DNA of 64,000 nt from Streptomyces paludis (GTDB lineage Bacteria; Actinomycetota; Actinomycetes; Streptomycetales; Streptomycetaceae): the NCBI RefSeq assembly GCF_003344965.1, contig NZ_CP031194.1, positions 992,001 to 1,056,000 of the forward strand. The letters run 5' to 3'. The translations under genes and the position numbers were made by a program. Shown piece after piece: positions 3,903-53,813 of the stretch. The notes beneath the pieces were generated by a model, which saw nothing but the letters and a program-made list of their open reading frames with translations, was not told the origin of the DNA and searched no databases. Position 1 is the first letter of the stretch, and each line of letters begins with the position of its first letter.

Positions 3903-3919
3903 TTGTTCCTCCTCGTAGG

Positions 3920-34205: not shown

Positions 34206-35420
34206 ATGGACTTCGCATTCGACGCCCGTACCGAAGAGCTGCGAGACCGGCTGCTCGCCTTCATGGACGAGCACGTGTACCCGGCCGAGCCGGTCGCCCA
34301 CGAGCAGCGCCAGGCGCTGGCCGACCCCTGGGGCACGCCCGCGATCGTGCCGGAGCTGAAGGCCGAGGCGCGCCGCCGGGGCCTGTGGAACCTCTTCCTG
34401 CCCGACGCGGAGTACGGCGCCGGGCTGACCAACCTCCAGTACGCGCCCCTCGCCGAGATCACCGGCCGCTCCCCGCACCTGGCGCCGACCGCGCTGAACT
34501 GCGCGGCGCCGGACACCGGGAACATGGAGGTGCTCGCCCAGTTCGGCTCTGAGGAGCAGCGCAAGCAGTGGCTGGAGCCGCTGCTGGCGGGCGAGATCCG
34601 GTCGGCGTTCGCCATGACCGAGCCCGAGGTGGCGTCGTCGGACGCGACGAACATCCGGACGCTGATCCGGCGCGACGGCGACGACTACGTCATCAGCGGC
34701 CGCAAGTGGTACATCTCCGGGGCCATGAACCCGGACTGCGCGGTCTTCATCGTGATGGGCAAGACCGACCCGGACGGTACGGACCCGCGCCGCCAGCAGT
34801 CGATGGTCCTGGTCCCGCGCGACACCCCCGGGGTGACGGTCCGCCGCGCGATGCGGGTGTACGGCTACGAGGACCACGCCCACGGCGGCCACGCCGAGGT
34901 GATCTTCGACGACGTACGGGTCCCCGCCGGCCATCTCGTCGGCGAGGAGGGCGGCGGCTTCGCCATCGCCCAGGCGCGGCTGGGGCCCGGCCGGATCCAC
35001 CACTGCATGCGGCTGATCGGCATGGCGGAGCGGGCCATCGAGCTGATGTGCCGGCGCGCCGTGTCCCGTACGGCGTTCGGCAGGCCGATCGCCCAGCAGG
35101 GCGTCGTACAGAACTGGATCGCGGATGCCCGGGTGACGGTCGAACAGCTGCGGCTGCTGGTCCTCAAGACGGCCTGGCTGATGGACACCGTCGGCAATCG
35201 CGGCGCGCACACCGAGATCCAGGCCATCAAGATCGCGACACCGCGCGCGGTGGCCGGGATCATCGACTCGGCGGTCCAGCTGCACGGCGCGGGCGGGGTC
35301 AGCCAGGACTTCCCGCTGGCCGAACTCTGGGCCGCCGCCCGTACGTTGCGCCTCGCGGACGGGCCGGACGAGGTGCACCAGCGCTCGCTGGCGCGCCGGG
35401 AGCTGAAGAAGTACGTCTGA
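34206..35420 (+). CDS. Acyl-CoA dehydrogenase family protein
   Basis: 404 residues starting MDFAFDARTEELRDRLLAFM. FAD/substrate motifs: AFAMTEPEVASSDATN (about 138-153), RKWYISGAMNPDC, GRIHHCMRLIGMAERAIELM and a C-terminal QLHGAGGVSQDFPLAELWA. It is closest in motif pattern to the ACAD11-like branch. In an operon with the APH-fold kinase; together they may remove the 4-hydroxyl group from acyl-CoA by phosphorylation and elimination (inference from the ACAD10/11 work). Confidence 0.93.
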   Translation: MDFAFDARTEELRDRLLAFMDEHVYPAEPVAHEQRQALADPWGTPAIVPELKAEARRRGLWNLFLPDAEYGAGLTNLQYAPLAEITGRSPHLAPTALNCAAPDTGNMEVLAQFGSEEQRKQWLEPLLAGEIRSAFAMTEPEVASSDATNIRTLIRRDGDDYVISGRKWYISGAMNPDCAVFIVMGKTDPDGTDPRRQQSMVLVPRDTPGVTVRRAMRVYGYEDHAHGGHAEVIFDDVRVPAGHLVGEEGGGFAIAQARLGPGRIHHCMRLIGMAERAIELMCRRAVSRTAFGRPIAQQGVVQNWIADARVTVEQLRLLVLKTAWLMDTVGNRGAHTEIQAIKIATPRAVAGIIDSAVQLHGAGGVSQDFPLAELWAAARTLRLADGPDEVHQRSLARRELKKYV

Positions 35421-35452
35421 GGAGTACGTCTGATCCTAGAGGTACCCCGGCG

Positions 35453-36046
35453 CTACGGGCGCAGCGCCCGCAGCAGCAGGTCCGCGAGGTGGTCGGCGAC
35501 CTGCTGCGGGGTGAGCGGGCCGTCGGGGCGGTACCAGGTGGAGAGGTGGTGGACGGAGCCGAAGTGGTAGTCCACCACCAGATCGGCGGGGGTCGCCGTG
35601 GAGAAGACGCCGGTGCGCTGGCCCTCCTCCACCAGGGCGCGGAAGCGCTCGTGGTAGCGGCGGCGCTCGGTCCGTACGCTCTGGTTCTTCTCCGGGCTCA
35701 GATGGTGCATGGAGCGGAAGAAGATCGCGGCGTCGTCCAGGTTGTCGATGGTCGTCACGACGACATCGGCCGCCGCCGCGCGCAGCCGGTCGGCCACGGG
35801 CTCGTCCGCGTCCGCGAAGGCGTCCAGACGCTCCTGCTGGAGCCTCAGGACGCGGGCGTAGACCTCCTGGAGGAGATCCTCCTTGGAGCCGAAGTAGTGG
35901 TAGAGCGCGCCTTTGGTGACCCCCGCCGCCTCCACGATCTCCTGGACCGAGGTGCGGTCGTAGCCACGTTCGGCGAAGAGCCGGGTGGCGGCGGCCAGCA
36001 GCCGCCGGGGTACGGGGGTACCGTCCCCGTCCGTAGTCCTGGCCAT
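35453..36046 (-). CDS. TetR-family regulator
   Basis: 197 residues from ATG 36046 (GTG 36055 is also in frame). The N-terminal helix-turn-helix spans about 12-60 (TRLFAERGYDRTSVQEIVEAAGVTKGALYHYFGSKEDLLQEV, of which VTKGALYHYFGSKEDL is diagnostic). The C-terminal ligand domain has an FRSMHHLSPEKN segment typical of acyl-CoA-responsive TetR proteins next to fatty acid catabolism genes. It converges on the acyl-CoA dehydrogenase with 32 bp between stops. Probably represses the kinase-dehydrogenase operon through the 33031 site. Confidence 0.92.
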   Translation of the reverse strand: MARTTDGDGTPVPRRLLAAATRLFAERGYDRTSVQEIVEAAGVTKGALYHYFGSKEDLLQEVYARVLRLQQERLDAFADADEPVADRLRAAAADVVVTTIDNLDDAAIFFRSMHHLSPEKNQSVRTERRRYHERFRALVEEGQRTGVFSTATPADLVVDYHFGSVHHLSTWYRPDGPLTPQQVADHLADLLLRALRP

Positions 36047-36242
36047 GTCGGCCACCCGCCTTTCCGGTCCGTGCGCCGCCGTGTCCGGCGCTCCCCCTTG
36101 GGGCACCCACGGCTGGGGAACACCGTTCCCGTCCCAGGATCTTCCCACTCGTGGTCCCGGGCGGCTCGGGCAGTGTCCCGGCCTCGCGCGGCCGTGGCGC
36201 GGTGCCGGCCGCCCCGGCGGGAGCGACCGGCACCGCCGGCGG

Positions 36243-37013
36243 TCACAGTACGGCGAACACGGTTCCCCTGCGCCGGAGTTGGCCGAGGGCCGTGTCGAGC
36301 GCGGCCACCGTCCCCGACCGGTCGCCGCCGCCGTCGTGGCAGAGCACGATGTCACCGGGGCGCGCGCGCAGCACGGTCCGCGCGATACGGGCCGCCGGCG
36401 GGGCGCGCCAGTCCTTGGGGTCCACGCTCCAGTCGACGGGCGTGAGTCCCTGTTCGCGCGCCGCGCCGAGCACGGTACGGGACCAGCCGCCGGCCGGGGC
36501 GCGGAAGAGGGCCGGGGTGACCCCGGTCGCGTCGGTGACCACGCGCTGGGTACGGCGGATCTCCTCGTGGATCCGTGCGGGCGGCAGGGCGGCGAAGGGC
36601 TGCGGGTGGCTGTACGTGTGGTTCCCGAGCGTGTGTCCCGCCGCGAGGATCCTCCGCAGCAGCTCCGGATGCCGGGCCGCGCGTTCGCCCACCACGAAGA
36701 ACGTCGCCCGTACGCGGTGGGCGTCGAGCACGTCGAGCAGGAGCGGGGTCCAGCGGGGGTCCGGGCCGTCGTCCACGGTCAGGGCCACCGGACGGGAAGG
36801 CGCGTCCGGGCGGGGAGACGCGTCCCGGCGGGGAGACGCGTCCGGGCCCCGCCCGCCGGCCGCCGGGACCCCGTACAGCGGTCCGTGGGCCAGCAGCGGG
36901 CGCCGGCCCGTACGCCCGGGGCCCCCGGCCCGCCCGGCGCCGCGCCAGACCTCAGCCCGGCGTACAAGGCTCCAGGCCGCCTGGGCGAGGTGGGCGCGTA
37001 CGGGATCAGACAC
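36243..37013 (-). CDS. Polysaccharide deacetylase (NodB domain)
   Basis: 256 residues from GTG 37013 with GGAG 6 nt upstream; it overlaps the upstream GT2 gene by 8 bp. NodB motifs: VALTVDDGPDPRWTP (metal Asp pair, about residue 75), LGNHTYSHPQPF (His ligands), FRAPAGGWS and IVLCHDGGG. Members remove N- or O-acetyl groups from sugars, or N-formyl groups from lipid-linked amino sugars (ArnD). There is no clear signal peptide: the N-terminus is Arg-rich, so a cytoplasmic or membrane-face location is possible. Last gene of the nine-gene minus-strand run. Confidence 0.9.
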   Translation of the reverse strand: MSDPVRAHLAQAAWSLVRRAEVWRGAGRAGGPGRTGRRPLLAHGPLYGVPAAGGRGPDASPRRDASPRPDAPSRPVALTVDDGPDPRWTPLLLDVLDAHRVRATFFVVGERAARHPELLRRILAAGHTLGNHTYSHPQPFAALPPARIHEEIRRTQRVVTDATGVTPALFRAPAGGWSRTVLGAAREQGLTPVDWSVDPKDWRAPPAARIARTVLRARPGDIVLCHDGGGDRSGTVAALDTALGQLRRRGTVFAVL

Positions 37014-38121
37014 CGCGGGCTCCGGTGCCGCGCGGACCGGCCGACGGGGAGGAGCCGGTGGCGGTCGAGGAGCCCGCGGCGGTCGTGGGGCGGGGCGCCC
37101 GGCCGGCCGGCGTACCGAAGTCGCGGTCGAAACGGCTGCGCACCCAGCCGGTCGCCGCGCCCAGCGCGATCTGTACGTTGACCAGCAGATGGAGGCCGAC
37201 GAAGAGCGGTACGAAACCGATCCCCCGCTTACGGCGGACGAACCCGAGGAGCGCCGGGTCCGCGGCGGCGAACGCGGCCACCCCGAGCACCGGGATCGGC
37301 GCCAGCGCGGGAACGAAGAGGGCCACGGGCGCGGTGACGGCGGTGAGGAGCGCCGCGGCCACGCCGAGTTCGCTGTTGGCCCGCAGCGCACCGGGGCGCC
37401 GGCGGTGCGCGGCGGCGAACGGAAGCAGGTACTGGGCGCGGCGGAACTGTTCGCGGAGCATCCGGCCGAGCCGGTGCTCCTCGTCGTGGGCCGCGACGAT
37501 CCGGTCGGTGAGGAGGATGCCGTGGCGCGCGGCCAGGCGTTCGCTGTACTCCACGTCCTCGCTGTCCCGCAGCGCGGGCTCGAACGGGCCCACCTCCTCG
37601 AAGACGGCGCGGGGCATGGCCGCCGCGGCGAAGTACGCCGTGGGGGTCGGGCCGACACCCTTGAGCCGCCAGTGGTGTGCGTGCAGGGTGCGGTACCACT
37701 CCACCGGGCCGTCGTCCACGAGGGGTTCGGCGGCGATGATGCCGTGCACACAGCCGAGCCGCGGGTCCGCCGACAGCAGGTCGACCGCGTTCTCCAGCGC
37801 GTCGGGGGCGAGCGCCTGGTCCGAGTCGAGGAAGAACAGGATGTCGCCGCGGGCGGCGGCCGCTCCGGCGTTGCGCGCCATGGAGACGCCGCCGTTGCGT
37901 TCGGCCCGTAACACCCGGCAGTCGAAGCGGCCGGCCACCTCCACGGAGTTGTCGGTGCTGGCGTCGTCCGAGACGATCACTTCGAACGCCGGAAGGGTCT
38001 GCGCGGCCAGGGAGGCGAGGCACAGCTCCAGCGTCGCGGCGTAGTTGTAGTTGGGGATGACGACGGAGACCCGCGCCGGGGAGCGGGGACGGTCGGCGGC
38101 GGGCACGGAGGACGCGGTCAC
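37006..38121 (-). CDS. GT2 glycosyltransferase with C-terminal membrane helices (TTA codon)
   Basis: 371 residues from GTG 38121. GT-A domain: VSVVIPNYNYAATLELCL, VIVSDDASTDNS, FFLDSDQALAPDALE (DxD-like), then VGPFEPALRDSEDVEYSERL as the acceptor/ED motif. Three hydrophobic helices follow (about 245-330). It is clearly a paralogue of the GT2 at 40608-41690. Codon 71 (37911-37909) is TTA, which requires the bldA tRNA. It overlaps the deacetylase gene downstream. Likely transfers a nucleotide-activated sugar to a polyprenyl-phosphate or glycan acceptor at the membrane. Confidence 0.9.
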   Translation of the reverse strand: MTASSVPAADRPRSPARVSVVIPNYNYAATLELCLASLAAQTLPAFEVIVSDDASTDNSVEVAGRFDCRVLRAERNGGVSMARNAGAAAARGDILFFLDSDQALAPDALENAVDLLSADPRLGCVHGIIAAEPLVDDGPVEWYRTLHAHHWRLKGVGPTPTAYFAAAAMPRAVFEEVGPFEPALRDSEDVEYSERLAARHGILLTDRIVAAHDEEHRLGRMLREQFRRAQYLLPFAAAHRRRPGALRANSELGVAAALLTAVTAPVALFVPALAPIPVLGVAAFAAADPALLGFVRRKRGIGFVPLFVGLHLLVNVQIALGAATGWVRSRFDRDFGTPAGRAPRPTTAAGSSTATGSSPSAGPRGTGARGV

Positions 38122-38280
38122 GGTGACACCTTCGGGACGGGGACCGGGGTCGCGGTCGGACGGACGGGCGAACGGGCGGGGGGAAAAGAGACAGACGGGG
38201 CGGTGTGTCCGCCCGGCCGGATCGCCGGGCGGACATGCGTCACCGGGGCGGCCCCGGTCACGCGTCGGGGCGGGACGGGA

Positions 38281-39234
38281 TCAGACGGCCTCGTCGAGGA
38301 TCCGGCGCAGCTCCGCCGGCAGCTCCAGCTCCGCGCCCACGAGGCACTCGTCGAGCTGGGCCACCGAGCTGACCCCGACGATCGGCACCACGGCGGGCTC
38401 GCCGCCGGTCAGCCAGGCCAGGACCACCTGGACCGGGGTGACGCCCAGCTCGGCGGCGACCTTGGCGAGCGCGCGCAGCCGGCGCTCGGTGCCGGGGTGC
38501 GCGTAGTACTCGGGAAGGGACTCCTCCGGGCGGTTGTAGGCGCCCCAGAGCAGCGAGGTGTACGCGAAGAAGGTGAGCCGGTGGGTGCCCACGTAGTCCA
38601 GCAGATCGTCGGTCGCGTGGACATGGCCGCCCTCGGGCAGGGTGGTCCCCGGCCGGGGCCGCAGATACGAGTAGCGCTGCTGCACGGCCGCGTACGGGGT
38701 CCAGCCGCGCCGCTCGGCGAGCGAGCGGGTCTCGGCGAGCCGCCAGGCGGGGTGGTTGCTGGCGCCCAGCGACCGGGCCTTTCCGTCGGTCACGGTCCGG
38801 TGGAAGGCGGCGAGGGTCTCCTCGTCGGGGGTGGTCCGGTCCTCGCGGTGCGCGTAGTAGAGGTCCACATGGTCGGTGCCCAGTCGGCGCAGGGTCCCCT
38901 CCAGCTGCTCCTGGATCACGGCCGGCGCGAGCCCTTCGGCCTGCCCGTCCGGCCCGGGGCCCGAGCCGACCTTGGAGGCGAGGGTCAGTCCGTCCCGGCC
39001 GCCCCGGTCCTTCAGCCAGCGGCCCAGCACGGCCTCGCTCTCGCCGCCGCTGCCGCCGGGCACCCAGAACGAGTAGCAGTTGGCGGTGTCGATGGTGGTT
39101 CCGCCCGCCTCCACGAACCGGTCCAGGATCGCGAACGATGTCTCCTCGTCGACCGTGGTGCCGAAGGGCATGGCCCCCAGACACACCGTGCTGACGGGGA
39201 TACCGGTGTCCTGGCCCATGGATCGCTGTCGCAT
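38281..39234 (-). CDS. Aldo/keto reductase
   Basis: 317 residues; GGAGGAAAG precedes ATG 39234. Aldo-keto reductase motifs: GGTTIDTANCYSFW (catalytic Tyr, Asp region), LTLASKVGSGPG (catalytic Lys), DHVDLYYAHREDRTTP (active-site His) and SLGASNHPAW. Uses NADPH to reduce carbonyls. It sits inside the minus-strand cluster but has 171 bp of upstream non-coding sequence with A+T-rich GTTTTAAAG, so it may have its own promoter. Its link to the pathway is plausible but unproven. Confidence 0.93.
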   Translation of the reverse strand: MRQRSMGQDTGIPVSTVCLGAMPFGTTVDEETSFAILDRFVEAGGTTIDTANCYSFWVPGGSGGESEAVLGRWLKDRGGRDGLTLASKVGSGPGPDGQAEGLAPAVIQEQLEGTLRRLGTDHVDLYYAHREDRTTPDEETLAAFHRTVTDGKARSLGASNHPAWRLAETRSLAERRGWTPYAAVQQRYSYLRPRPGTTLPEGGHVHATDDLLDYVGTHRLTFFAYTSLLWGAYNRPEESLPEYYAHPGTERRLRALAKVAAELGVTPVQVVLAWLTGGEPAVVPIVGVSSVAQLDECLVGAELELPAELRRILDEAV

Positions 39235-39405
39235 CTTTCCTCCGGGATTCCGGTGGGGTGCGCGGGAGTGTGTTTCCGCTCAACCCACTTGTTTTAAAGG
39301 GGTGTTGACCACACCGTAGAGGGGGCCGTGGACAGGCCGGAACGCGTACCCGGCGATGTGGGAGTTTCGGCGAGCGGGGCGTACGACCTTTGTGCCACGC
39401 CCCGG

Positions 39406-40611
39406 TCAGCCGCCGGGGACCGACAGGACGAGCGCCTGGGCCCGGTGGTCGGACATGCCCCGGCTGTCCACCGTCCGGTACTCGTGGACCGTGACCGATT
39501 CGCTGGTGAACGCCCAGTCGAGCCGCCACAGCGCCGGTCCGCTCGCCGGCCAGGTCCCCGGGTACAGCAGGCCGCTCGCGGGCAGCGCGTCCTTCAGCCG
39601 GCCGCCGAGCCGGCGCACCTCACCCATGGCCGAGGTGCCGTTCATGTCGCCCGCCACCACCACGGGCAGCCGGTTCTCCGCCAGATCCCGCTCCAGCGCC
39701 CGGTAGTGGGCCTGGCGCCGGACCTCCTGGGCCCGCATGAACTCAGGGAACCGCGCCGAGAAGGGATCCATCGAGACATCGAGCTGTACCGGGACATGGA
39801 TGTTGTAGAACGTCATCACCCGCCCGTCGACCCGCAGATCGGTGCGGAGCACCTTGTACCGGTAGTACTCCGGGAACCCTCCGTCGGGCGGCTTCCCGAT
39901 ACCGGGATCGGACAGGTACGGCCAGCTGTCCAGCGCGCGCCACTCCTCGATCGGATACCGGGACATCGTCAGCACCTCGCCGACCGCCACAACATGGAAC
40001 CCCGGGAAACGGGCGCGGAGTTCGGCCACATGGTCCACCCGGACCGGCCGGTGTCGCGCCAGGTCCCAGGAGACATGCTCCTGAAGCAGATAGACATCGG
40101 CCCGCTGCGCCTTCAGATACGCGTAGAACTCCTCGGGGTCGTCGCTGTCGTCCCAGTACTCGGTGTTCCACGAGAACACCCGAGGCGCCCCCGGCGGTGC
40201 GGCCGTCGTACCGCCGAGGCCCGGCAGCGCGTGCGCGTTCAGTCCCGCCAGGGGCAGACCGAGCAGCAGAGCGCAGAGCGCGGCGACGGACAGCCGGCCC
40301 CTGGCCCCGCGCGCCGCCGGGGTGAGCGCCAGCAGGAGCAGCGGCACCACCAGGAACGTCAGGGGAGGCAGCAGCTCCACCGGCCGCCACCACCAGTGCT
40401 CGCCGGTGAGGAGCAGGAACGCCACCAGGAACACCGTCCACAGCGCGACGGCCACGGCGAGCGTCCGGGTCATCCGGCCCGCCGCCCGGCCGGCCGTCCG
40501 TCCGGCCGCCTCCCCGGCCGCCGGTGGCCGGGGAGGCACCGGCGCGCGGGGCTCGCCGGCTCCCCCGGCCGCCCGCACCTCGTCCACGGGCACGGGCACA
40601 GGCACGCTCAT
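39406..40611 (-). CDS. Membrane-anchored endonuclease/exonuclease/phosphatase-fold protein
   Basis: 401 residues; ATG 40611 overlaps the upstream GT2 stop (ATGA). After a Pro/Ala-rich tail, three N-terminal hydrophobic helices (about 52-72, 78-100, 108-130) anchor an EEP domain. Catalytic residues: FSWNTEYWDDSDDPEE, LLQEHVSWDLARH (Glu), VVAGDMNGTSAMGEV (Asp-x-Asn) and SDHRAQAL (Asp-His) at the end. The catalytic domain is expected outside the membrane. In a glycolipid-type cluster it more likely removes a phosphate (for example from a lipid-linked phosphosugar) than cuts DNA; this is inference. Confidence 0.88.
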   Translation of the reverse strand: MSVPVPVPVDEVRAAGGAGEPRAPVPPRPPAAGEAAGRTAGRAAGRMTRTLAVAVALWTVFLVAFLLLTGEHWWWRPVELLPPLTFLVVPLLLLALTPAARGARGRLSVAALCALLLGLPLAGLNAHALPGLGGTTAAPPGAPRVFSWNTEYWDDSDDPEEFYAYLKAQRADVYLLQEHVSWDLARHRPVRVDHVAELRARFPGFHVVAVGEVLTMSRYPIEEWRALDSWPYLSDPGIGKPPDGGFPEYYRYKVLRTDLRVDGRVMTFYNIHVPVQLDVSMDPFSARFPEFMRAQEVRRQAHYRALERDLAENRLPVVVAGDMNGTSAMGEVRRLGGRLKDALPASGLLYPGTWPASGPALWRLDWAFTSESVTVHEYRTVDSRGMSDHRAQALVLSVPGG

Positions 40612-41690
40612 GCCGTCATCCCGGGATTCCGTACGGTCGGCTCCCCCGGCGCGCCGGAGATCTCCTCCCGGGCGGTCTCCTCCCCAGCGGTCAGCCACTG
40701 GGTCTCGTACAGCCGGCGGAACCGGCCGGACAACAGCCAGTAGACGGCGCCCACCGCGATGCCCGACGAGATGGCGACGTTGGTGGCGAAGGCCACCGAG
40801 GTGAAGACCGCGAGAAAGCGCGCGCCCCGGCGCTTGAGGACATAGCGGTACATCGGCAGATCCCCGGCGACCGAGAGCCCGGCCAGGGCCACCGGCGCCA
40901 GGAGCCACCACGGGCCGAGCAGGGCGAGCGGCAGGGCGGCCACCGCGCCGAGGGCCGCCACCGCGGCCATGGACCGGGACGCGGTCTCGAACCCCTTGGC
41001 GAAGCGCCGGCGCCGGGCGAACAGCGGGACCCTCAGCCGGGCCCGCCGGAACAGCTTGCGCAGCAGGGCCGACAGCTTGTCGTCGTCGTCATGGCGGCCC
41101 AGGACATGAGGGGTGACCATGATCTCGTAGCGCGCGGACATCCGTTCGCCGTACTCGACCTCCTCGGTCTGCCGCAGCCGCGGGTTGAACGGGCCGATCT
41201 CCTGGAAGACCTTGCGCGGGATCGCGGTGAGCGAGGAGAAGAGGAAGCTGACCGTACCGAGCGAGTCCATCCGCCAGCAGTACGCCTGCAGCACCCGGCA
41301 CTCCTCGACGACGCTGTCCCGGATCAGCGGCTGGTCCTCGTAGATGCCGCAGACCGCGCCGTACCCCGGATTGGCGAGCAGCTCCTCGACCGCCTTCTCC
41401 ACCGCGTCCGGGCGCAGCGCCACATCGGAGTCGACGAAGAACAGGATCTCGCCGCGCGCCGCCGCCGCGCCGGTGTTGCGGGCGACGGCGACGCCGCTGT
41501 TGCCGGGGGTCTGGAGGACGGTCACATCCCGGCTGCGGGCGATCTTCAGGGAGTCGTCGGTGCTGTGGTCGTCGACCACGATCACTTCGAGCGGGGCGTA
41601 CGTCTGGCGCAGCGCCGCGTCGACACAGAGCCCTATGGAGTTCCGGTAGTTGTAGTTGGGGATGACGACCGACACGAGAGGTCGGGGCAC
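40608..41690 (-). CDS. GT2 glycosyltransferase with C-terminal membrane helices
   Basis: 360 residues from GTG 41690, preceded by AGGAGGATC. Motifs: LVSVVIPNYNYRNSIGLC, VIVVDDHSTDDSLK, FFVDSDVALRPDAVEKA and EIGPFNPRLRQTEEVEYGER. Two to three hydrophobic helices near 245-315 suggest it works at the cytoplasmic membrane face. It is a paralogue of the 37006-38121 gene; both keep PNYNY and the E-(D/E)-VEY motif. Coupled to the EEP gene by a 4-bp overlap and 101 bp after the prenyltransferase gene. Confidence 0.92.
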   Translation of the reverse strand: MPRPLVSVVIPNYNYRNSIGLCVDAALRQTYAPLEVIVVDDHSTDDSLKIARSRDVTVLQTPGNSGVAVARNTGAAAARGEILFFVDSDVALRPDAVEKAVEELLANPGYGAVCGIYEDQPLIRDSVVEECRVLQAYCWRMDSLGTVSFLFSSLTAIPRKVFQEIGPFNPRLRQTEEVEYGERMSARYEIMVTPHVLGRHDDDDKLSALLRKLFRRARLRVPLFARRRRFAKGFETASRSMAAVAALGAVAALPLALLGPWWLLAPVALAGLSVAGDLPMYRYVLKRRGARFLAVFTSVAFATNVAISSGIAVGAVYWLLSGRFRRLYETQWLTAGEETAREEISGAPGEPTVRNPGMTA

Positions 41691-41791
41691 AGTGATCCTC
41701 CTGAGAGGGTGACCGGTCGTGGGCGGACCGGTGGCGGGCGGACTGGTGGCGGAGGGGCTCGTAGCGGGTGGGCCAGGAGCGGGCGGGCTGG

Positions 41792-42955
41792 TCAGTAGCG
41801 GGCGGCGAGCAGGGTGCCGCCGAGCAGCAGCGCCCAGAGCAGGAAGTTGACGACCATGGCGCGGTCGCGCAGCAGGATGCGGGTCGGCTCGCCGCCGTCG
41901 CCGTCGACATGCAGCAGTTGCAGATAGCGGGCCATGGCGAAGAGCGCGAACGGCGCCGAACCGAGAATCGCCAGGTCGGTGTGCGGAGCGCCGACCGACT
42001 CCTCCAGGTTGAGCAGGAAGGTGATGACGGTGACCCCGGCGCACAGCGCGATCAGATGGTCGAGGAACGGGACGGAGTAGCCGCGCAGGGAAGGACGGTG
42101 GGAGACACCCCCGGCCGTCATCTCGTGCCGGCGTTTGCCCAGGACGAACACCAGGCAGAGCGAGAACACCGAGACCAGCATCCAGCCGCGGACCGCCGTA
42201 CCGCCGGCCAGATGGCCCTGGACCACGCGGAGGGCGAATCCGATGGCCACGATGAAGACGTCCAGCAGGGGAACGTGCTTCAGCCCGCGGCTGTAGGCGA
42301 GGTTGAGGGCGAGATAGACGGCGATCGGCCACCAGTCGGTGACGGGGCCGTACAGCGCCGCCGCCGTCAGCAACAGCGCGAGCCCGGTGCCGAGGGCGAG
42401 GGCGGCGGACACACTCACCTGCCCCGAGGCGATCGGACGGTGGCGCTTGTCGGGGTGCAGCCGGTCGCGGTGCCGGTCGGAGAGATCGTTCAGTACGTAC
42501 ACCAGGGACGAAGCGAGGGTGAACAGCAGGACGGCCCAGGCGGTGCGGGCCGCCAGCCCCTGCGGCGCCGTCTGCGCGTCGAGCAGCGCGAGCGGCACCA
42601 CCAGCAGGTTCTTCGGCAGCTGCCCCGGGCGTACGAGGGACAGCAGCGCCCGCGGCAGGCTCCGGGAGGGGCGGGGGCGGGGCGGGGGCTCCGTGGGCGG
42701 AGCGGTGTTACGGGGCCGGGTGTCGCCGGTCCGGGTGTCGTCCTCGGTCCGGTCGTGGACCGTCACGTCATGGACCGTCAGGTCGTCGCGAGGCCGGTCA
42801 CGTAACCGCCGGGGCGGCGGCGCGTCGGGCAGAGCGGCGTTGAGGGCGGTGGTGTCGAGGGAGCTGGTATCGAGGGTGGTGGTGTCGAGGGGGCTGGTGT
42901 CGAGGCTGGTCTTGAGGGGGCTGGTGTCGAGGGGCTGGTCGGCACTCGTCGTCAC
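41792..42955 (-). CDS. UbiA prenyltransferase, decaprenyl-phosphate phosphoribosyltransferase-like (TTA codon)
   Basis: 387 residues from GTG 42955 (GGGAG 6 nt upstream). About 95 N-terminal residues are low-complexity, with repeated LDTS/LDTT units and a charged stretch; codon 51 (42805-42803) is TTA. Nine or so membrane helices follow, with the UbiA motifs NDLSDRHRDR and HPDKRHRPIASG and a second Asp motif near LNLAYSRGLKHVPLLDV. The HPxKRxRPIASG form is typical of enzymes that join PRPP to polyprenyl phosphate (Rv3806c-like), the first step toward polyprenyl-phosphate pentoses. A different acceptor is possible. Confidence 0.88.
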   Translation of the reverse strand: MTTSADQPLDTSPLKTSLDTSPLDTTTLDTSSLDTTALNAALPDAPPPRRLRDRPRDDLTVHDVTVHDRTEDDTRTGDTRPRNTAPPTEPPPRPRPSRSLPRALLSLVRPGQLPKNLLVVPLALLDAQTAPQGLAARTAWAVLLFTLASSLVYVLNDLSDRHRDRLHPDKRHRPIASGQVSVSAALALGTGLALLLTAAALYGPVTDWWPIAVYLALNLAYSRGLKHVPLLDVFIVAIGFALRVVQGHLAGGTAVRGWMLVSVFSLCLVFVLGKRRHEMTAGGVSHRPSLRGYSVPFLDHLIALCAGVTVITFLLNLEESVGAPHTDLAILGSAPFALFAMARYLQLLHVDGDGGEPTRILLRDRAMVVNFLLWALLLGGTLLAARY

Positions 42956-42968
42956 GTCGGTCTCCCGG

Positions 42969-44012
42969 TCAGAAGAAGGCTTTGGCCAGGCCCAGCGCGC
43001 CCTGTTTCCACGGCTCTTGGCTGGTCCGGCCCGTGGACGCGGTCGCTTCGGAGGTGGTTCTGGTGGTGCGCCACCACGCGTAGGTCTGGAGAATGGCGTC
43101 CCTGTTGGAGTGGCGGGGCGACCAGCCGAGCACCTTCTGCGCCTTGTCGATGCTGACGTAGGAGTCCGCGCGCAGCTTGTGCACCAGCCGGCCGTACACC
43201 GGGGAGAGCCTGAGCCGGCTCAGCAGATCGAGGGTCAGGACCGCGGGCGCGGCGGGTACGGAGATCACCCGCTTGCCGTGTCCGGCGGCGTCCAGTACGG
43301 CCTGGAAGTCCTCGCGCAGGGTGCCGAACTCGGCCGCCGCCAGATTGAACGTGTCGTCGGCGGCCTCCGCCGGCGCGGCGAGCGTGGTGGCGACGGCGTC
43401 GACCAGATCGTCGACCGAGAACATCTGGATACGGACGTCCCCCCGCCCGAGGACCGGGAAGTTGCGGCCCTCCTCCGCCCATTCGAAGAGCATGGCGAAC
43501 AGCCCCATCCGGCCGGGTCCCACGAAGGTCTTGGGCCGCAGGACGGGAACGCACAGTCCGCGGGCGCGGAACTCCTCGGCGACCTCCTCCGCCCCGGCCT
43601 TGGCCCTGCTGTAGGCGTCGACCGGACTGCGCGGATAGTCCTCCGTGGTCGGGACCGTGTCCGGCAGCCCGTACACCGCCGTGGAGGAGATGTGCACCGC
43701 GCGTTCCAGCCCGGCGTCGGCGGCGGCCCGCAGGACTGTCCGGGTGCCGTCGACGATGATCGAGCGGATCTCGGCCTCCGGGTAGCTGGGCAGCGCCGCC
43801 GCGGTGTGCACCACCGCGTCGGCCCCGGCCAGTGCGGCCCGTACGCGGTCCAAGTCCCGTATGTCCGCGGTCAGATGGTCCACGCCGGGCACCCGCTCGG
43901 CGGGCGGCCGTACATCGAGACTGCGTACCCGGGTCCCGGCCGCGGCCAGCGACCTGACCAGATTCCCGCCCAGCATGCCGCTGCCGCCCGTCACCACCAC
44001 GGTCCTCACCAC
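42969..44012 (-). CDS. NAD-dependent epimerase/dehydratase (extended SDR)
   Basis: 347 residues. GTG 44012 overlaps the aminotransferase stop by 7 bp (GTG 44009 also possible). Motifs: RTVVVTGGSGMLGGNLVRSL (NAD binding), HISSTAVYGLPDTVP and DAYSRAKAGAEEVAEEF (catalytic YSRAK). PVLRPKTFVGPGRMGLF and QMFSVDDLVDAV are typical of sugar or steroid-type extended SDRs. It could oxidise or epimerise the pentose made by the adjacent prenyltransferase, or act on an NDP-sugar. Confidence 0.9.
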   Translation of the reverse strand: MVRTVVVTGGSGMLGGNLVRSLAAAGTRVRSLDVRPPAERVPGVDHLTADIRDLDRVRAALAGADAVVHTAAALPSYPEAEIRSIIVDGTRTVLRAAADAGLERAVHISSTAVYGLPDTVPTTEDYPRSPVDAYSRAKAGAEEVAEEFRARGLCVPVLRPKTFVGPGRMGLFAMLFEWAEEGRNFPVLGRGDVRIQMFSVDDLVDAVATTLAAPAEAADDTFNLAAAEFGTLREDFQAVLDAAGHGKRVISVPAAPAVLTLDLLSRLRLSPVYGRLVHKLRADSYVSIDKAQKVLGWSPRHSNRDAILQTYAWWRTTRTTSEATASTGRTSQEPWKQGALGLAKAFF

Positions 44013-45433
44013 AGCGACGACACCTTCTCGCGGACGAAGCGGGTGACCAGACGGGGCAGTCCGACGGCGAGGGTGCGCTCCAGGCGCTCCAGGAAGATCT
44101 CCACCTCGTCCGGGGTGGCGACCAGGGGCGGGCCGACGACCAGCGGGTTCTTGCCGTTGAGTGTGTAGTAGGCGTAGATGTCGTGGTCCTGGTACAGCGC
44201 GTTGATGACGGCGCAGGTGACCACCTTCGTACCGAACTGCGGGTCCTTGGCCAGCCCGCCGGGGGCCAGTTTGGCGACGAGGTCGAGGATGCCGGGGCTG
44301 CCCAGGAAGGCGCCCCACAGCGCGCCGGCGCCGCGTACGTCCGTGACGATGTCGGAGTGCTCCTTGGCGATCCGTTCGAGGCCGGGGCCGAGGACGCTCT
44401 CGATCGCCCTGGCGCGCGCCGGGAAGTCCTCCTCCACGGCGATGTTGATCGCCTCGATGGCGGTGGCGCACTCCTCGCCGAACCCGTAGTAGGTGGTGCT
44501 GGTGCTCTGGAGCAGCGCGTCCCGCAGATTGTCGTACGCCTTGCGGAAGACCGGCCGGCGGGCCACGTACGCGGAGATGGAGGACTTGCCGCCGCCGAAG
44601 GACTTCGATGTCGTCACCACATCGGGTATGAGCCCGGGGTAGCGCATGAAGTAGAACATCGTGCCGGTCTTGCCCCAGCCGCTGTAGATCTCGTCGAAGA
44701 TGAGGATGATGTCCTCCTTCGTGCACAACTCCCGCACTCCGCGCAGGAACTCCTCCGAGCACCACCGGATGGTGGAGGCGCTGAACGGTTCGATGAGCAG
44801 GGCGTAGACATCGGCCCGGCCCTTGCTGTCGCGGGTCGCGTCCACGGCGGCCCGTACGGAGTCCAGATCGTCGTAGGTGAAGGTGGAGACACCGGGGATC
44901 CCGGGAAAGGCGAAGTGGTTCTGCGCGCCGCCGGTGAGGCTGCCCGAGCCGAGGAGCTTGCCGTGGAAGCTGATGTCGCTGCGGAGCACACTGTTGCGTT
45001 TGCCGCCGTGGTACTTGTACGCGAGCTTCACCGCGCCCTCGACGGCCTCCGCGCCCGAGTTGGGCAGGAAGGACATGTCCAGGTCGCCCGGGAGGACGGC
45101 GGCCAGATTGTGGGACAGCGCGGCCAGGTAGGGGGAGAAGTAGGTCTTGTGGACCTCCATCCGCCCGTTCTCGGCGAACCGTCGGCGGGCTTCGAGGATC
45201 CGTGGGTGGTTGTGGCCGTGGTTGAGGACGCCGACACCTCCGGTGAAGTCCAGGATCCGGCGGCCGTCCTTCGTATGGACGTACGCGCCCTCGGCCCGGT
45301 CGACCAGTTCCCGGCCGAAGCCGAAGGAGGTCATCAGGGACACCTGGCTCTTGTTCACGTACTGGCGGTACAGGTCGTGCACTTGGCCGACGGACATGGC
45401 TTCGGCGTCGTCGATGCTCAGGAGTTCTGTCAT
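44006..45433 (-). CDS. Class III PLP-dependent aminotransferase
   Basis: 475 residues; ATG 45433 overlaps the upstream stop (ATGA). Fold type I, class III: NSGAEAVEGAVKLAYKYHG (PLP phosphate site), IFDEIYSGWGKTGTMFYF (Asp for the pyridine N) and VVTTSKSFGGGKSSISAY (PLP lysine in TSKSFGGG). The MSVGQVHDLYRQYVNKSQ N-terminus and KVVTCAVINALYQ C-terminus are not those of ArgD or GabT. Substrate unknown. In this setting an amino group might be placed on a lipid-linked carbonyl sugar; it could also supply an amine building block. Confidence 0.9.
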   Translation of the reverse strand: MTELLSIDDAEAMSVGQVHDLYRQYVNKSQVSLMTSFGFGRELVDRAEGAYVHTKDGRRILDFTGGVGVLNHGHNHPRILEARRRFAENGRMEVHKTYFSPYLAALSHNLAAVLPGDLDMSFLPNSGAEAVEGAVKLAYKYHGGKRNSVLRSDISFHGKLLGSGSLTGGAQNHFAFPGIPGVSTFTYDDLDSVRAAVDATRDSKGRADVYALLIEPFSASTIRWCSEEFLRGVRELCTKEDIILIFDEIYSGWGKTGTMFYFMRYPGLIPDVVTTSKSFGGGKSSISAYVARRPVFRKAYDNLRDALLQSTSTTYYGFGEECATAIEAINIAVEEDFPARARAIESVLGPGLERIAKEHSDIVTDVRGAGALWGAFLGSPGILDLVAKLAPGGLAKDPQFGTKVVTCAVINALYQDHDIYAYYTLNGKNPLVVGPPLVATPDEVEIFLERLERTLAVGLPRLVTRFVREKVSSLW

Positions 45434-46476
45434 GCGATGGTCCCCTTTCGGAGGGAGGCGGTAAGGACCCGGCGGTCGCGGAGCGCGACCCCACCCAGGG
45501 CGGTGCCCGAGGTGACGAGTTCGGCGACGAGCGTGAGCACCCTGCTGCCGAGGGCGGTGGCGATGGCGGCGGGCAGCGGCAGGACGGAGGCGAGGGCGGG
45601 CACCAGCAGCAGTTCGCGGACGCCGACGCCATCGGGTGCGAACACCACGAGCGTCCCGGCCACGGTGGCGAGGGCGAACCCCCCGACCGAGGCGGTCAGC
45701 GCGGGCAGCGGCGCGGCGCCGAGCAGCACCGCGAGCACCCAGACATGCAGGCCCGACAGCACCCAGGCGACCGTCTGGTACGCGACGGCCCGGCGCAGGG
45801 CGCCCGGCCGGCCGGGGGACGGCGGTGGCGGCGGCCGGCGGCCGATCCGGGCGGCGAGCCCGGCCAGCCCGTGGATCAGCTCGGGCCGGGCCACGAGAAC
45901 CGCCAGCGGAACCAGGGGCAGCAGCAGCCACCACACTCCGTGGGGCAGCAGCGCCGGCGCGACCAGCATGCCGACCAGACCGCCCGTGAGCAGGACGACG
46001 ACCAGGTTGACCAGGTACGTCCCGGCCATCTGGGCCTTGGTGGCGCCGGCCCGCTCGCCCATCCGGATCTGCGCGATCAGCCCCCAGACCCGGCCCGGCA
46101 CGAACTTGCCCAGGAAGCCGACGAAGAACATCCGTATCCCGGTGCCGGTGGGTACGGGGAGCGCGATCGCCGACAGCGTCAGCAGCCAGGAGCGGGTGCC
46201 GCACAGCAGGCCCGCCGCGCTGATCACAACGGCGCCGAGCAGCGCCGCGGCCGAACCGCCGTGGAACAGCCCGGCGAGCACGGACCAGTCCTGTCCGCGC
46301 AGGGCGAGACAGATACCGGCCACCACCGCCACCGCGAAGAGCGCGGCCAGCGAGCGGCGCCACACCGCGCTCGGCACGCGGGTCTTCTTGTAGGGGGTCT
46401 TCGTGCAGGGGGAGCCGGGAACAGGGACGAGAACCGGCACTGCCGTCTTTTCCGTGGTCATGTGGGGGTCCGTCAT
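45430..46476 (-). CDS. LPG-synthase-TM (UPF0104/AglD-like) membrane protein
   Basis: 348 residues, about eight hydrophobic helices after a 35-residue cytoplasmic tail. RMFFVGFLGKFVPGRVWGLIAQIRMGERAG (FLGKFVPGRVWG core) and VFAPDGVGVRELLLVPAL (PDGVGVRE) are hallmarks of the lysylphosphatidylglycerol synthetase membrane-domain family. It lacks the soluble aminoacyl-transferase domain, so it is a stand-alone membrane half, of the kind proposed to flip or transfer lipid-linked substrates. ATG 46476 or 46461 may be used; neither has a strong ribosome binding site. First gene of the nine-gene run. Confidence 0.9.
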   Translation of the reverse strand: MTDPHMTTEKTAVPVLVPVPGSPCTKTPYKKTRVPSAVWRRSLAALFAVAVVAGICLALRGQDWSVLAGLFHGGSAAALLGAVVISAAGLLCGTRSWLLTLSAIALPVPTGTGIRMFFVGFLGKFVPGRVWGLIAQIRMGERAGATKAQMAGTYLVNLVVVLLTGGLVGMLVAPALLPHGVWWLLLPLVPLAVLVARPELIHGLAGLAARIGRRPPPPPSPGRPGALRRAVAYQTVAWVLSGLHVWVLAVLLGAAPLPALTASVGGFALATVAGTLVVFAPDGVGVRELLLVPALASVLPLPAAIATALGSRVLTLVAELVTSGTALGGVALRDRRVLTASLRKGTIA

Positions 46477-46830
46477 GTGAGGTCCGATGCTTTACGGCGG
46501 GCGAGGCAGGCGGGACGGGCGAGGCGGATACGGACGGTGGGGCGGAGGCACGGACCGCACGCTACGGACCCGCCACGGCCGGGCGGGAGTAGCGACCGCC
46601 GATCCCGCCGGGGTTGTCGGCGAAGGTGGAAGACGGGGCTACGACCATGGGCGTACCGGGGTGCAGGGCGTCGTGTACGCATGGCTACGCGTGGGCCGGC
46701 ATACCGATTCGCCCCTGATCCATTCCGGTTCCGCCGTCACGGCCCTCACTCGGGCGCCGCCCGCCGTTTACAGAGCGTTGATCTCCGAGCCTGGCGGAAG
46801 GCAGGGGGAGGGCTTAATCTGACGACCGGC

Positions 46831-46874
46831 GAATTGCGCTCGCTTTGCGCTCGCTTTGTGTTCGGTTTGCGCTC
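46831..46874 (+). promoter_or_regulatory. Four tandem 11-bp direct repeats (consensus GSTTTGCGCTC)
   Basis: Units start at 46831, 46842, 46853 and 46864 with no gaps. Units 2 and 4 differ by one base; unit 1 begins GAA and unit 3 ends GTGTTC. The 11-bp period puts every unit on the same DNA face. Such arrays are the binding sites of SARP activators and of PhoP-type response regulators in Streptomyces. The array ends 13 bp before a possible -10 (CAGAGT, 46888), which suits an activator at the -35 position of the histidine kinase gene. Confidence 0.75.
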
Positions 46875-46931
46875 AAATCCTTAGCGGCAGAGTCCGTATC
46901 TGCGGCGAATTGGATGTCCGGGGCATAAGTT

Positions 46932-46945
46932 TGGGAGCGCTCCCA
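46932..46945. promoter_or_regulatory. CebR-box palindrome TGGGAGCGCTCCCA
   Basis: A perfect 14-bp palindrome identical to the consensus operator of CebR, the LacI-family repressor released by cellobiose/cellotriose in Streptomyces. It lies 31-43 bp before the kinase start, inside the probable leader and just downstream of the 11-bp repeat array. A repressor here would block transcription of the two-component genes. Confidence 0.8.
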
Positions 46946-46987
46946 CACTTGTGCGAGCTGAGAGGGATTCGTCAATTGTCCGCTTTG

Positions 46988-48022
46988 ATGGCACACACCG
47001 ACCCGAACCGCGGTTCCGCCGTCCATCAGGAGATCGATACCTCGATCCGCCGAGCGCTGCGCCGCGCGGGCCTGGAGCCGGCCATCCGGCCCGAGGCCGT
47101 CGATGAACTCACCGTCCACGCCTGCGCCCTCTTCGACGAAGTCATCGCCGTCGCCGAGACCGGCGGCCCGCTCGGCATGGTCACCGCCGGTGGCGCCGAG
47201 TGGAGTCAACCGGACATGGACTGGGCGCTGTTACTCCGGGCAGGAACCACACTCTTCGAGGTGGTACTGCCCATAGCCCTCCGCGAGCTGGCCCCTCCGG
47301 ACAGCGCCGCCGCCAGCCGGGTCAGCGCACTGCTCCACCGCGGGATCACGGCCCTCGTCGTCCGCGGTTCCCTGACCGAGCCGCCCTCCCCGCGCGAGCT
47401 GATCCTCAGTTCGCGGCGGGACGAACGCCGCCGTATGGCACGGGAGTTGCACGACCGGGTGCTGCACGGCATCGGCCTGGCCCTGCACAGCCTCGACCTG
47501 CACCGATACCACGCGGAGTCCTCCCCCGTACTGGCCCGCGACAAGGTGGACTCGGCGATCGACCAGCTCTGTCAGGCCGTGCACACCCTCCAGCAGTTCT
47601 CCGGGGAACTGCGCCGGTCGGTGGGGCCCGGCGATCTGGAGCCGGCGCTGCGCTCCTATCTGGCGGACCATGTCGAACCGTCGGTGGAGGTGGCGATGCG
47701 TACGAGAGGGAATCTCGCCTCGCTCCCCGCGGACATCGGCGAGGAGGTCTATCTGATCGTGCGCGAGGCCGCCCGCAACGCGGTGCGCCACGCCTCGCCC
47801 GTCCAGCTGGACATCGCCGTCGAGGTGAACGACCGGACGATACGCGCGACGGTGACGGACGACGGTTGCGGCACCGACGCCGACGCCTCCCGGCCCGGCG
47901 GCGGCCTGTCCTCCATGCGGGAGCGCGCCCTGCTCCTGCGCGGGCAGTTCGTCTGGACCAGCGCGCCCGGCGCCGGCACCCTGGTCGCGGTGCGGGTCCC
48001 GCTCGGGGAGAACCGCCGATGA
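46988..48022 (+). CDS. Cytoplasmic NarL-type sensor histidine kinase (TTA codon)
   Basis: 344 residues from ATG 46988. A TTG at 46976 is better spaced from GAGAGGG, so the true start is uncertain. There are no membrane helices. An N-terminal all-helical sensor region of unknown type (about 1-140) is followed by HisKA_3 with RMARELHDRVLHGIGLALHS (phospho-His in ELHDR, about residue 155). The HATPase has VREAARNAVRHAS (N box) and VTDDGCG (G1). Codon TTA at 47231-47233 makes translation depend on the bldA tRNA. Stop overlaps the response regulator start (ATGA). Confidence 0.92.
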   Translation: MAHTDPNRGSAVHQEIDTSIRRALRRAGLEPAIRPEAVDELTVHACALFDEVIAVAETGGPLGMVTAGGAEWSQPDMDWALLLRAGTTLFEVVLPIALRELAPPDSAAASRVSALLHRGITALVVRGSLTEPPSPRELILSSRRDERRRMARELHDRVLHGIGLALHSLDLHRYHAESSPVLARDKVDSAIDQLCQAVHTLQQFSGELRRSVGPGDLEPALRSYLADHVEPSVEVAMRTRGNLASLPADIGEEVYLIVREAARNAVRHASPVQLDIAVEVNDRTIRATVTDDGCGTDADASRPGGGLSSMRERALLLRGQFVWTSAPGAGTLVAVRVPLGENRR

Positions 48023-48723
48023 GTGTCCCGCCGGACCCGCCCGCGGTCCGTATCTGCCTCGCCGACGATCACACCCTGATGCGCGACGGTCTCAAGGAAG
48101 TCCTCCACACCGCCCCGGGATTCACCGTGGTGGGTGAGGCGTCCACCGGCACCGAGGCCATGGCGCTCGTGGGACGGCTCCGTCCCGATGTGCTCCTCCT
48201 GGATGTCGAGATGCCCGGCCCGCATCCCGCCGAGACCATCCAGCAGGTCGCCCGGATCGCTCCGGAAACCGCGGTGCTCGTCCTGACGATGCATGACGAT
48301 CCGCACATGGTGCAGGAGCTGCTGGAGGCGGGGGCCTCCGGCTATCTGCTCAAGTCCATCCTCCGGGAGGAACTGATCGCCGCCGTCGGCTCGGTGGCGC
48401 ACCGTACCTCCGGCAGCGTGGTGCTGATCGTCTCCCGCCGTACGGTGGGGCAGTTGCACCGGCAGAAGCCGCGCGACCGCAAGACTCAGTTGACGGACCG
48501 TGAGCTGGTGCTGCTGCGGCTGGTCGCGGAGGCCCTGAGCAACGCCCAGATCGCGGCGCGGCTCTTCATCACGGAGGCCACGGTCAAACGGCATCTCACC
48601 AACGTGTACGCGAAGCTGGGGGCGGTGTCCCGGGTGGACGCGCTGCGCAAGGCCACCGCGGCCGGGCTGATCGGCGACGGGAGACCGGGCCACGCCGGGC
48701 CGCTGCACGGCGCCCCTCCGTGA
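48019..48723 (+). CDS. LuxR/NarL-family response regulator
   Basis: 234 residues: receiver domain (about 8-125) with DDHTLMRDG, phospho-acceptor in LLLDVEMPGP, and the Thr/Lys switch residues in LTMHDD and LLKSILREE. The C-terminal LuxR helix-turn-helix (about 160-220) reads LTDRELVLLRLVAEALSNAQIA then TEATVKRHLTNVYAKLG. Coupled to the histidine kinase. The obvious candidate target is the divergent nine-gene run and its own promoter. It converges with the SDR gene, 33 bp apart. Confidence 0.95.
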   Translation: MSVPPDPPAVRICLADDHTLMRDGLKEVLHTAPGFTVVGEASTGTEAMALVGRLRPDVLLLDVEMPGPHPAETIQQVARIAPETAVLVLTMHDDPHMVQELLEAGASGYLLKSILREELIAAVGSVAHRTSGSVVLIVSRRTVGQLHRQKPRDRKTQLTDRELVLLRLVAEALSNAQIAARLFITEATVKRHLTNVYAKLGAVSRVDALRKATAAGLIGDGRPGHAGPLHGAPP

Positions 48724-48756
48724 CCTGCCGTACGGCCGGGGCGCGCGGAGCACCGG

Positions 48757-50972: not shown

Positions 50973-51419
50973 TCAACGCCCAAGCAGCACCCGCGTCTCA
51001 TCACTCACGTTGGGCAGCTCGCCGCGGTCCGCCCACATCGCGCCGTCGTGCTCGGTGAGTTCGACCGGTCCATGCTCCTCGACCGTTACGGAGAAGGTGA
51101 ACTGACGAGTCATCAAGCCGCTGCCTGAGGCGTAGTCAAAGGCCCCGGCATAACCGGTGACCTCGGCAAGCGCGAGACCGGTCTCCTCCGCGACCTCCCG
51201 GCTCAGCGCCTCCCCCACCCCCTCGCCCGGCTCGACACCGCCACCGGGCAGCTCCCACAGCCCACCGAGAAAATCGTCGGGCTTCCGCCGCAACAGCAGA
51301 ACCCGACCGGCCTCATCACTGATCAGCGCGCCCACGACGAACTGCCCGATACCCGCCTCCGCGGCCTCGGCCAGAAGGCCGGGGACCAAGTCGGGTTCGC
51401 TGGCGAAGAGGGAGGTCAC
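50973..51419 (-). CDS. Nudix hydrolase in the Gfo-DegT operon
   Basis: 148 residues from GTG 51419, overlapping the aminotransferase stop (GTGA). Nudix box: GGGVEPGEGVGEALSREVAE then ETGL, following LWELPGG. LRRKPDDFLGGLWELPGG-type surroundings resemble MutT/NUDT-like hydrolases. Third gene of a tightly overlapping operon. It may clear or release a nucleotide-sugar intermediate. The 3' end faces NamZ with 24 bp between stops. Confidence 0.92.
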   Translation of the reverse strand: MTSLFASEPDLVPGLLAEAAEAGIGQFVVGALISDEAGRVLLLRRKPDDFLGGLWELPGGGVEPGEGVGEALSREVAEETGLALAEVTGYAGAFDYASGSGLMTRQFTFSVTVEEHGPVELTEHDGAMWADRGELPNVSDETRVLLGR

Positions 51420-53658: not shown

Positions 53659-53813
53659 GAGCAGACTCCTTCCGCTTCGTGTGAGGACTTGTCGATGCGT
53701 GTCGAGTACAGCCCAACGAACAGTCACCGCACAGACATTGTCCGTAGTCCCGAGGTGGTCCCGCCCTCGCGCGCAGTAGCCTTGCCGTCACTGTCGATGA
53801 TGGAATTGGGCCC

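Follow-up and report, generated by a model that had tools for sequence, protein, structure and literature searches.

We describe a nine-gene operon on the minus strand (positions 36243-46476) of a 64,000-nucleotide stretch of the Streptomyces paludis genome (NZ_CP031194.1, positions 992,001 to 1,056,000; hereafter the window), which lies ~1 Mb into a single contig of 8,454,852 bases. The region holds a real unit of orthologous genes, conserved beyond chance in several genera. The best reading of its content is a polyprenyl-phosphate pentofuranose pathway of the type known from mycobacterial Rv3806c and from three-component systems, in which a protein of the endonuclease/exonuclease/phosphatase family (EEP) and an LPG_synthase_TM membrane protein (LPG-TM) replace the PAP2 and GtrA proteins, and which is extended by amination. 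Whether the operon builds a polyprenyl-phosphate-linked aminopentofuranosyl glycan is, in our estimate, evenly balanced.

Conservation of the nine-gene unit

A first-pass annotation of the window had proposed nine minus-strand genes, and their families and coordinates were confirmed by open reading frames and Pfam matches. In order of transcription they encode LPG-TM (PF03706, a candidate flippase; 45430-46476, 51.7 bits), a class III aminotransferase (AT3, Aminotran_3; 44006-45433, 212 bits), an extended short-chain dehydrogenase/reductase (SDR) or NAD epimerase (EPI; 42969-44012, 123 bits), a UbiA-family polyprenyl-phosphate phosphoribosyltransferase-like enzyme (41792-42955, assigned by a profile match to the Rv3806c structure and by active-site residues), a family 2 glycosyltransferase (GT2) with C-terminal membrane helices (GTa; 40608-41798, start uncertain, 110 bits), a membrane-anchored EEP phosphatase/phosphodiesterase (39406-40611, start uncertain, 65.5 bits), an aldo-keto reductase (AKR; 38281-39234, 179 bits), a second GT2 (GTb; 37006-38121, 113 bits) and a NodB-family deacetylase (36243-37013, 126 bits) with the motifs TVDDGP, HTYSHP, RAPAGG and LCHD. 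The four gene overlaps already reported are present, at 4, 7, 4 and 8 nt, and a fifth of 7 nt would join UbiA to GTa if the latter starts at the TTG at 41798; the codon-usage caller favours a later start. Gaps of 171 and 159 nt bound the AKR gene. The operon is likely a single transcript, judging by this layout; a promoter scan of 35300-48900 found none, and terminator-like sites in the same interval numbered four, against 2.3 (standard deviation 1.7) in shuffled sequence.

A pattern scan built from an alignment of 24 UbiA relatives, run on one genome per species (84,980 species), returned 51 loci in Streptomyces, Micromonospora, Actinoplanes, Actinosynnema and Streptosporangium. These and the window, 52 loci together, were gene-called with a simple custom codon-usage caller, and eight genes were treated as the core: the two GT2, LPG-TM, AT3, the SDR, UbiA, EEP and AKR. 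All eight occurred in 41 of the 46 loci of at least 14 kb, window counted, so the genes are conserved together and not scattered, which answers the co-occurrence check suggested by the first-pass annotation. As for the incomplete loci, the sequence of L023 and L030 begins close to LPG-TM, so that GTb cannot be judged there, GTb of L029 was missed by the caller but is present by tblastn, L050 has a single GT2 plus a GT4, and L051 has EPI, UbiA, one GT2 and EEP only. AT3 and EPI were adjacent in every one of the 48 loci in which both were called (window included) and overlapped in 40, and among the 52 loci GTa-EEP adjacency was seen in 47, LPG-TM-AT3 in 45 and EPI-UbiA in 32. LPG-TM itself was called in 48 of the 52, and the genes are arranged in at least six orders. 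By contrast, the genes for TetR, acyl-CoA dehydrogenase, APH, metallo-beta-lactamase, another SDR and NamZ, six neighbours of the operon in the window that served as a control, were found in none of the 51 loci (tblastn, 1e-8; flanks up to 10 kb, less where contigs end); a TetR-family protein of L047 gave a 65-residue match at 38%, above that threshold. None of the papers listed by searches of the open-licence PMC literature was seen to describe such a cluster.

An even sample of 246 genomes from the genus gave 31 with an AT3 match (search to E 1e-150), 19 of them at 71-100% identity (own genome included). All of these 19 encoded a cluster-type UbiA too, with E-values of 3.1e-54 or better. The AT3 and UbiA starts share a contig in 18, at a distance of 1,970 to 5,125 bases; in the other, G178, they are on different contigs, with UbiA at a contig end. 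The eight of these loci that were fetched all contained AT3, EPI, UbiA, EEP and LPG-TM, six with two GT2, one (L070) with a single GT2 and one (L072) with no GT2 match in its 20 kb. The survey is not independent of the 51-locus scan, as five of the eight appear to match L003, L025, L035, L036 and L040. Two genomes (G077 and G065) had a cluster-type UbiA and no AT3 at the E 1e-150 threshold. A strict AT3 search across the phylum found 3 of 296 genomes, all of the window's genus, though Micromonospora relatives exist. The cluster is uncommon.

Several gene families recur beside the core, with Pfam identities resting on example members: a GT4 in 15 loci, an EryCIII-like glycosyltransferase in five and a second EEP in many. 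An MMPL gene lies downstream of AKR in 14 of the 51 loci (by clustering, with Pfam run on L016 only) and is absent from the window version. Genes for a GntR/UTRA regulator, a solute-binding protein and permeases, often with GH3, stand beside the cluster in 30 of the 51 loci (L014, L016, L022 and L043 among them) in varying arrangements, an uptake block which we take to resemble dasRABC and which may reflect either a functional link or an insertion hotspot. It was left out as a part of the system, being present neither in the window slice 28001-58000 nor in L002, L003 or L008.

The UbiA enzyme and its partner proteins

The window UbiA carries the family motif NDxxDxxxDRxHPxKRxRPIA, and the family profile found the Rv3806c structure 8j8j as its best match (162 bits). 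Twelve positions at which M. tuberculosis Rv3806c contacts phosphoribosyl pyrophosphate (PRPP), Mg or the lipid phosphate were taken from the sections of PMC10994848 used here. Ten are identical throughout the cluster UbiAs (R22, K28, Y70, N73, D77, K87, R90, Y138, K143 and K191), identity being counted only in rows with a letter at the column (47 to 51 of 52 rows). The Y157 position is Phe, which those sections give as natural in some mycobacteria too, and the Q135 position is changed (see below). The earlier comparison of this protein to decaprenylphosphoryl-5-phosphoribose (DPPR) synthase is supported, and a first pathway step in which UbiA would act as a polyprenyl-phosphate phosphoribosyltransferase is fairly well supported.

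The genus holds a second UbiA family, at 34-41% identity (E 8e-39 or weaker), which is the sole kind in 86 of the 246 genomes; the window's genome has only one UbiA of either kind. This second DPPR-synthase-like UbiA (L075-L080) is widespread in the genus and stands beside PAP2, GtrA and BrkB-like genes (for example L076:7996-10826), with the PAP2 family near it in four of six loci and the GtrA family in four of six, by clustering. The mycobacterial decaprenylphosphoryl-ribose parts list includes a PAP2 phosphatase and a GtrA-type protein. Since the second-kind UbiA of L076 has PAP2 and GtrA genes as its neighbours, the comparison suggests that EEP and LPG-TM may fill the phosphatase and flippase places of those proteins in the cluster. 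Micromonospora loci L009, L010, L012 and L044, as well as L013, encode an extra UbiA-like protein with an NGLSDQVEDRR motif (by eye) near a kinase, and five Micromonospora loci encode a small S-adenosylmethionine decarboxylase-like protein (by eye); coordinates for these are ~2875-3977 (-) and 15761-16341 (+) in L009, L010, L012 and L044, 4734-5624 in L013 and 5943-6404 in L011.

EPI has the motifs TGGSGMLG (by eye) and YSRAK, which fit the TGxxGxxG and YxxxK of the SDR of three-component systems; the characterised Citrobacter member, ORF13, alters the C3 configuration of polyprenyl-phosphate ribofuranose according to the excerpts of PMC11127046 consulted. Three related clusters without a close AT3 or AKR (L073, L074 and L051) retain SDR, UbiA, GT2 and EEP, and in all three EPI lies directly beside UbiA. 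EPI stays beside UbiA even where no close AT3 or AKR is found, and so appears tied to the UbiA product, with AT3 apparently an added branch. In L074 the neighbours of UbiA include a nucleotidyltransferase-like gene and a GT4. AKR usually accompanies AT3, with L072 as the exception. The class III assignment of AT3 holds, with the pyridoxal-phosphate-site motifs DEIYSG and TTSKS present, and its best solved relative is the putrescine aminotransferase 4uox. A precedent for such a pairing is found in puromycin-type pathways, where, in the passages of PMC11641026 used here, an NAD dehydrogenase and an aminotransferase aminate ribose and are accompanied by a phosphatase.

The 12 AT3 relatives remaining from the genus survey (59-63% identity; L053-L064), all of them fetched, belong to a separate cassette, laid out as GT2, an amine-oxidase-like FAD protein, AT3, a small protein, a GMC oxidoreductase and, in half, an MFS protein. 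By clustering, with Pfam run on members from L053 and L064 only, the GMC family is present in 12 of 12, GT2 in 11, the FAD family in 11 and MFS in six. L062-L064 have a common gene that in L064 encodes a haem-oxygenase-like iron protein.

An alignment of 23 EEP copies shows invariant columns for the catalytic E, H, D-x-N, D and final H; the first N is replaced by D in one copy, and SDH becomes STH in four copies and SEH in two others. The model of the window protein (mean predicted local distance difference test score, pLDDT, 90) found generic EEP nucleases, sphingomyelinases and one mannosyl-6-phosphatase by Foldseek, a range that does not fix the substrate; sugar phosphatases of the EEP family do exist, 4c1r being among the matches. 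A PDB sequence search gave chance-level viral capsid matches only. EEP may be kin to VanJ. The function of VanJ is said to need elucidation in the part of PMC4790382 used. EEP has three N-terminal hydrophobic helices, with arginines ahead of helix 1 and in the stretch that joins helices 2 and 3, and by the charge rule its catalytic domain is predicted to lie outside the cell. A 5-phosphatase step in the cytoplasm is in conflict with such a position, which speaks instead for amination at C2 or C3, or for a late phosphatase/phosphodiesterase role. As to LPG-TM, the earlier suggestion of a flippase is in line with the prediction for PF03706/COG0392 proteins in the portion of PMC5898192 consulted, where archaeal members have a deacetylase-plus-glycosyltransferase context.

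The GT2 pair had been listed together as paralogues; paralogy stands, as a tree of 34 rows from 17 clusters splits into GTa and GTb, and the two genes are not neighbours in the window. Fifteen of the 17 clusters have one GTa and one GTb (L074 on doubtful long branches), the exceptions being L013 with two GTa and one GTb and L050 with one GT2. The GTb clade of the window type (window, L002, L008 and L073; support 100/100) comprises the loci whose operon includes NodB; elsewhere the GTb is 43-56% identical and NodB has no match. NodB is an optional module and not core. Its confinement to one GTb clade suggests that GTb probably adds an N-acetylhexosamine (HexNAc) which NodB then deacetylates. 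The pattern of processive synthases, [QRE]xxRW, is absent from both window GT2 proteins. Structures similar to the GTa model (mean pLDDT 86) were an archaeal mannosyltransferase, TarP and hyaluronan/cellulose synthases, the root-mean-square deviation being large for most of them, and this range does not fix the donor sugar.

Proposed pathway and alternatives

From this gene content we infer the substrates, the sequence of reactions, the position of the amine and the product as follows. On the cytoplasmic side, UbiA would transfer ribose-5-phosphate from PRPP to polyprenyl phosphate. While the pentose is lipid-bound, the SDR would then oxidise one of its ring hydroxyls, and the resulting carbonyl would be converted to an amine by the class III aminotransferase; AKR, which usually accompanies amination, would add another redox step. 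GTa and GTb would add sugars, and in the window NodB would deacetylate the HexNAc probably added by GTb. LPG-TM would flip the lipid-linked sugar, after which the extracytoplasmic EEP would remove a phosphate or cut a phosphodiester. The amine would sit at C2 or C3 if EEP acts after export, and at C5 if dephosphorylation is cytoplasmic. A more specific version, in which the SDR keto product of the PRPP-derived, lipid-bound pentofuranose is taken by the aminotransferase, the two GT2 extend it, an MprF-like flippase exports it and UbiA is retuned at the ribose O3 contact, so that the whole would be an amino-furanose counterpart of Arn, is one that we hold only tentatively, at rather less than even chances. 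Transfer to an envelope or secreted product, as proposed in the first-pass annotation, stays conjectural, and no acceptor transferase was found in the cluster.

Several observations weigh against the aminopentofuranosyl glycan. Class III aminotransferases mostly aminate aldehydes, which would suit C5 better than C2 or C3, and the predicted outside position of EEP is at odds with C5 amination. EPI is remote from named families, its best NCBIfam match being HpnA at 99.9 bits (cut-off 367.65), and UbiA scores 191 bits, below the NF008978 equivalog cut-off of 207. At the Q135 position of UbiA, the ribose O3 contact of Rv3806c (in the sections of PMC10994848 cited above), 36 of the 51 rows with a letter have N, 14 have S and one has T, and the residue at the K208 position is P (by eye). 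As Q135 is replaced in the cluster UbiAs but is Q in all six fetched paralogues of the second kind, the donor may be other than plain PRPP. The window's genome encodes five GtrA-family proteins outside the cluster, so a protein other than LPG-TM may be the flippase. No GT-C or ligase is present among the nine operon proteins by Pfam, the GT-C search having covered these proteins and not the rest of the genome. In L073 a 29%-identical aminotransferase and AKR genes lie upstream on the opposite strand, so that absence of amination there is not certain, and L072 has AT3, EPI, UbiA, EEP and LPG-TM yet no GT2 or AKR match in its 20 kb, so that neither is strictly needed with AT3.

The alternative that survives best, though we think it unlikely, keeps the same early steps and makes the polyprenyl carrier a scaffold from which EEP frees a soluble amino-oligosaccharide (phosphate), secreted as a specialised metabolite with an antibiotic or signalling role. 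It would fit the patchy spread (19 of 246 genus genomes), the location near the 1 Mb mark of an 8.45 Mb contig, the SARP or LuxR-type regulators that adjoin the cluster in other loci and the MMPL gene of 14 loci; the window version, however, is without MMPL, and no polyketide synthase, non-ribosomal peptide synthetase or resistance gene was seen among the subset of conserved neighbours run through Pfam.

Somewhat less probable is that the GT2 enzymes draw on a nucleoside diphosphate (NDP)-amino sugar made by EPI and AT3, with or without AKR, and that UbiA yields a plain polyprenyl-phosphate-pentose serving only as primer. Extended SDRs and aminotransferases commonly act on nucleotide sugars, AT3 relatives occur without UbiA in the GT2-containing cassette, and L074, which is without AT3, has the nucleotidyltransferase-like gene and GT4 next to UbiA. 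The placement of EPI directly beside UbiA in all three clusters without a close AT3 argues otherwise, as do the lack of a nucleotidyltransferase among the nine window proteins and the class III type of the aminotransferase, NDP-sugars usually being served by the DegT type.

We regard as less probable again a final amino-glycolipid, in which UbiA would transfer a modified phosphopentose or act on some lipid that is not polyprenyl phosphate. Its logic would resemble that of hopanoid side chains, which involve an HpnA-like SDR, a class III aminotransferase, a GT2, a deacetylase and an RND/MMPL exporter. The replaced Q135 in every cluster UbiA with a letter there, the HpnA match of EPI and the MMPL genes would fit, but K28 and K191, the polyprenyl-phosphate contacts, are invariant, and the nine proteins include no hopanoid-type gene product. 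A chance neighbourhood, for which nothing speaks beyond the ordinariness of the enzyme families, has a vanishingly small likelihood, being refuted by the synteny conserved in several genera and the genus-wide co-occurrence.

If the aminopentofuranosyl reading is true, the phosphoribose-lipid route, so far known from mycobacterial arabinan and Gram-negative pentofuranose side chains, would also feed amino sugars in soil actinobacteria, with its phosphatase and flippase replaced. The cluster would offer a tractable test of lipid-linked-sugar flipping by stand-alone PF03706 proteins, and would mark S. griseus (L022) and S. anulatus (L025), among other species, as likely sources of a cationic glycan or of an amino-oligosaccharide that is secreted.

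Neighbouring genes and comparison with known systems

A divergent two-component system, overlooked in the first-pass annotation, adjoins the operon on the plus strand: a sensor histidine kinase (46856-48022; HisKA_3/HATPase_c) and a response regulator with a LuxR/GerE DNA-binding domain (~48010-48723, start approximate; Response_reg and GerE). It probably controls the operon; a relative of the kinase was found in 10 and a member of the regulator family in 11 of the 51 fetched loci. Further off, NUDIX, DegT aminotransferase (51416-52669) and GFO/IDH/MocA oxidoreductase genes lie in a row on the minus strand (50973-53727), close to NamZ (49668-50948, plus strand), and may form a separate amino-sugar set.

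Among known systems, the hopanoid side-chain pathway has no counterpart in what was scanned: no HpnH, HpnG or squalene-hopene cyclase occurs among the operon proteins or the scanned flanking genes (between 27605 and 58098). Arn, which makes undecaprenyl-phosphate 4-amino-4-deoxy-L-arabinose, is alike in placing an amino-pentose on polyprenyl phosphate and in its GT2 and NodB-fold enzyme, and the first-pass annotation had drawn on it by way of a NodB deformylase. That analogy by way of NodB does not hold, as NodB is confined to the four clusters named above; the pentose here would be expected to come from PRPP. The hallmarks of Arn are ArnA, the DegT-type ArnB and ArnT. By Pfam the nine proteins include no ArnA, DegT-type ArnB, ArnT or other GT-C, the aminotransferase being of class III and the DegT gene noted above lying outside the operon, and membership was therefore rejected. 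Puromycin-type 3'-amination (Pur10, Pur4 and Pur3; passages of PMC11641026 as above) is alike in its roles, with a dehydrogenase and an aminotransferase that act on ribose and a phosphatase besides; its substrate, by contrast, is a free nucleotide and not lipid-linked.

The mycobacterial decaprenylphosphoryl-ribose/arabinose route (Rv3806c, Rv3807c, DprE1/E2 and Rv3789, parts as generally known) shares with the cluster the UbiA-fold phosphoribosyltransferase with most of its active-site residues, surrounded by phosphatase, redox and flippase roles. The cluster differs in having EEP for PAP2, LPG-TM for the GtrA-type protein, and SDR, class III aminotransferase and AKR for DprE1/E2, with two GT2, no GT-C and Q135 changed. 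The three-component pentofuranose systems (Citrobacter ORF12-15; excerpts of PMC11127046 as above) are alike in combining a polyprenyl-phosphate phosphoribose (PPPR) synthase, an SDR acting on a lipid-linked pentose and a flippase. Their hallmark MATE or SMR/GtrA flippase is not encoded in the cluster, which has LPG-TM instead and is without a GT136/GT-C or a HAD phosphatase domain, and to their plan the cluster adds amination and an extension by GT2 enzymes, in hosts that are Gram-positive.

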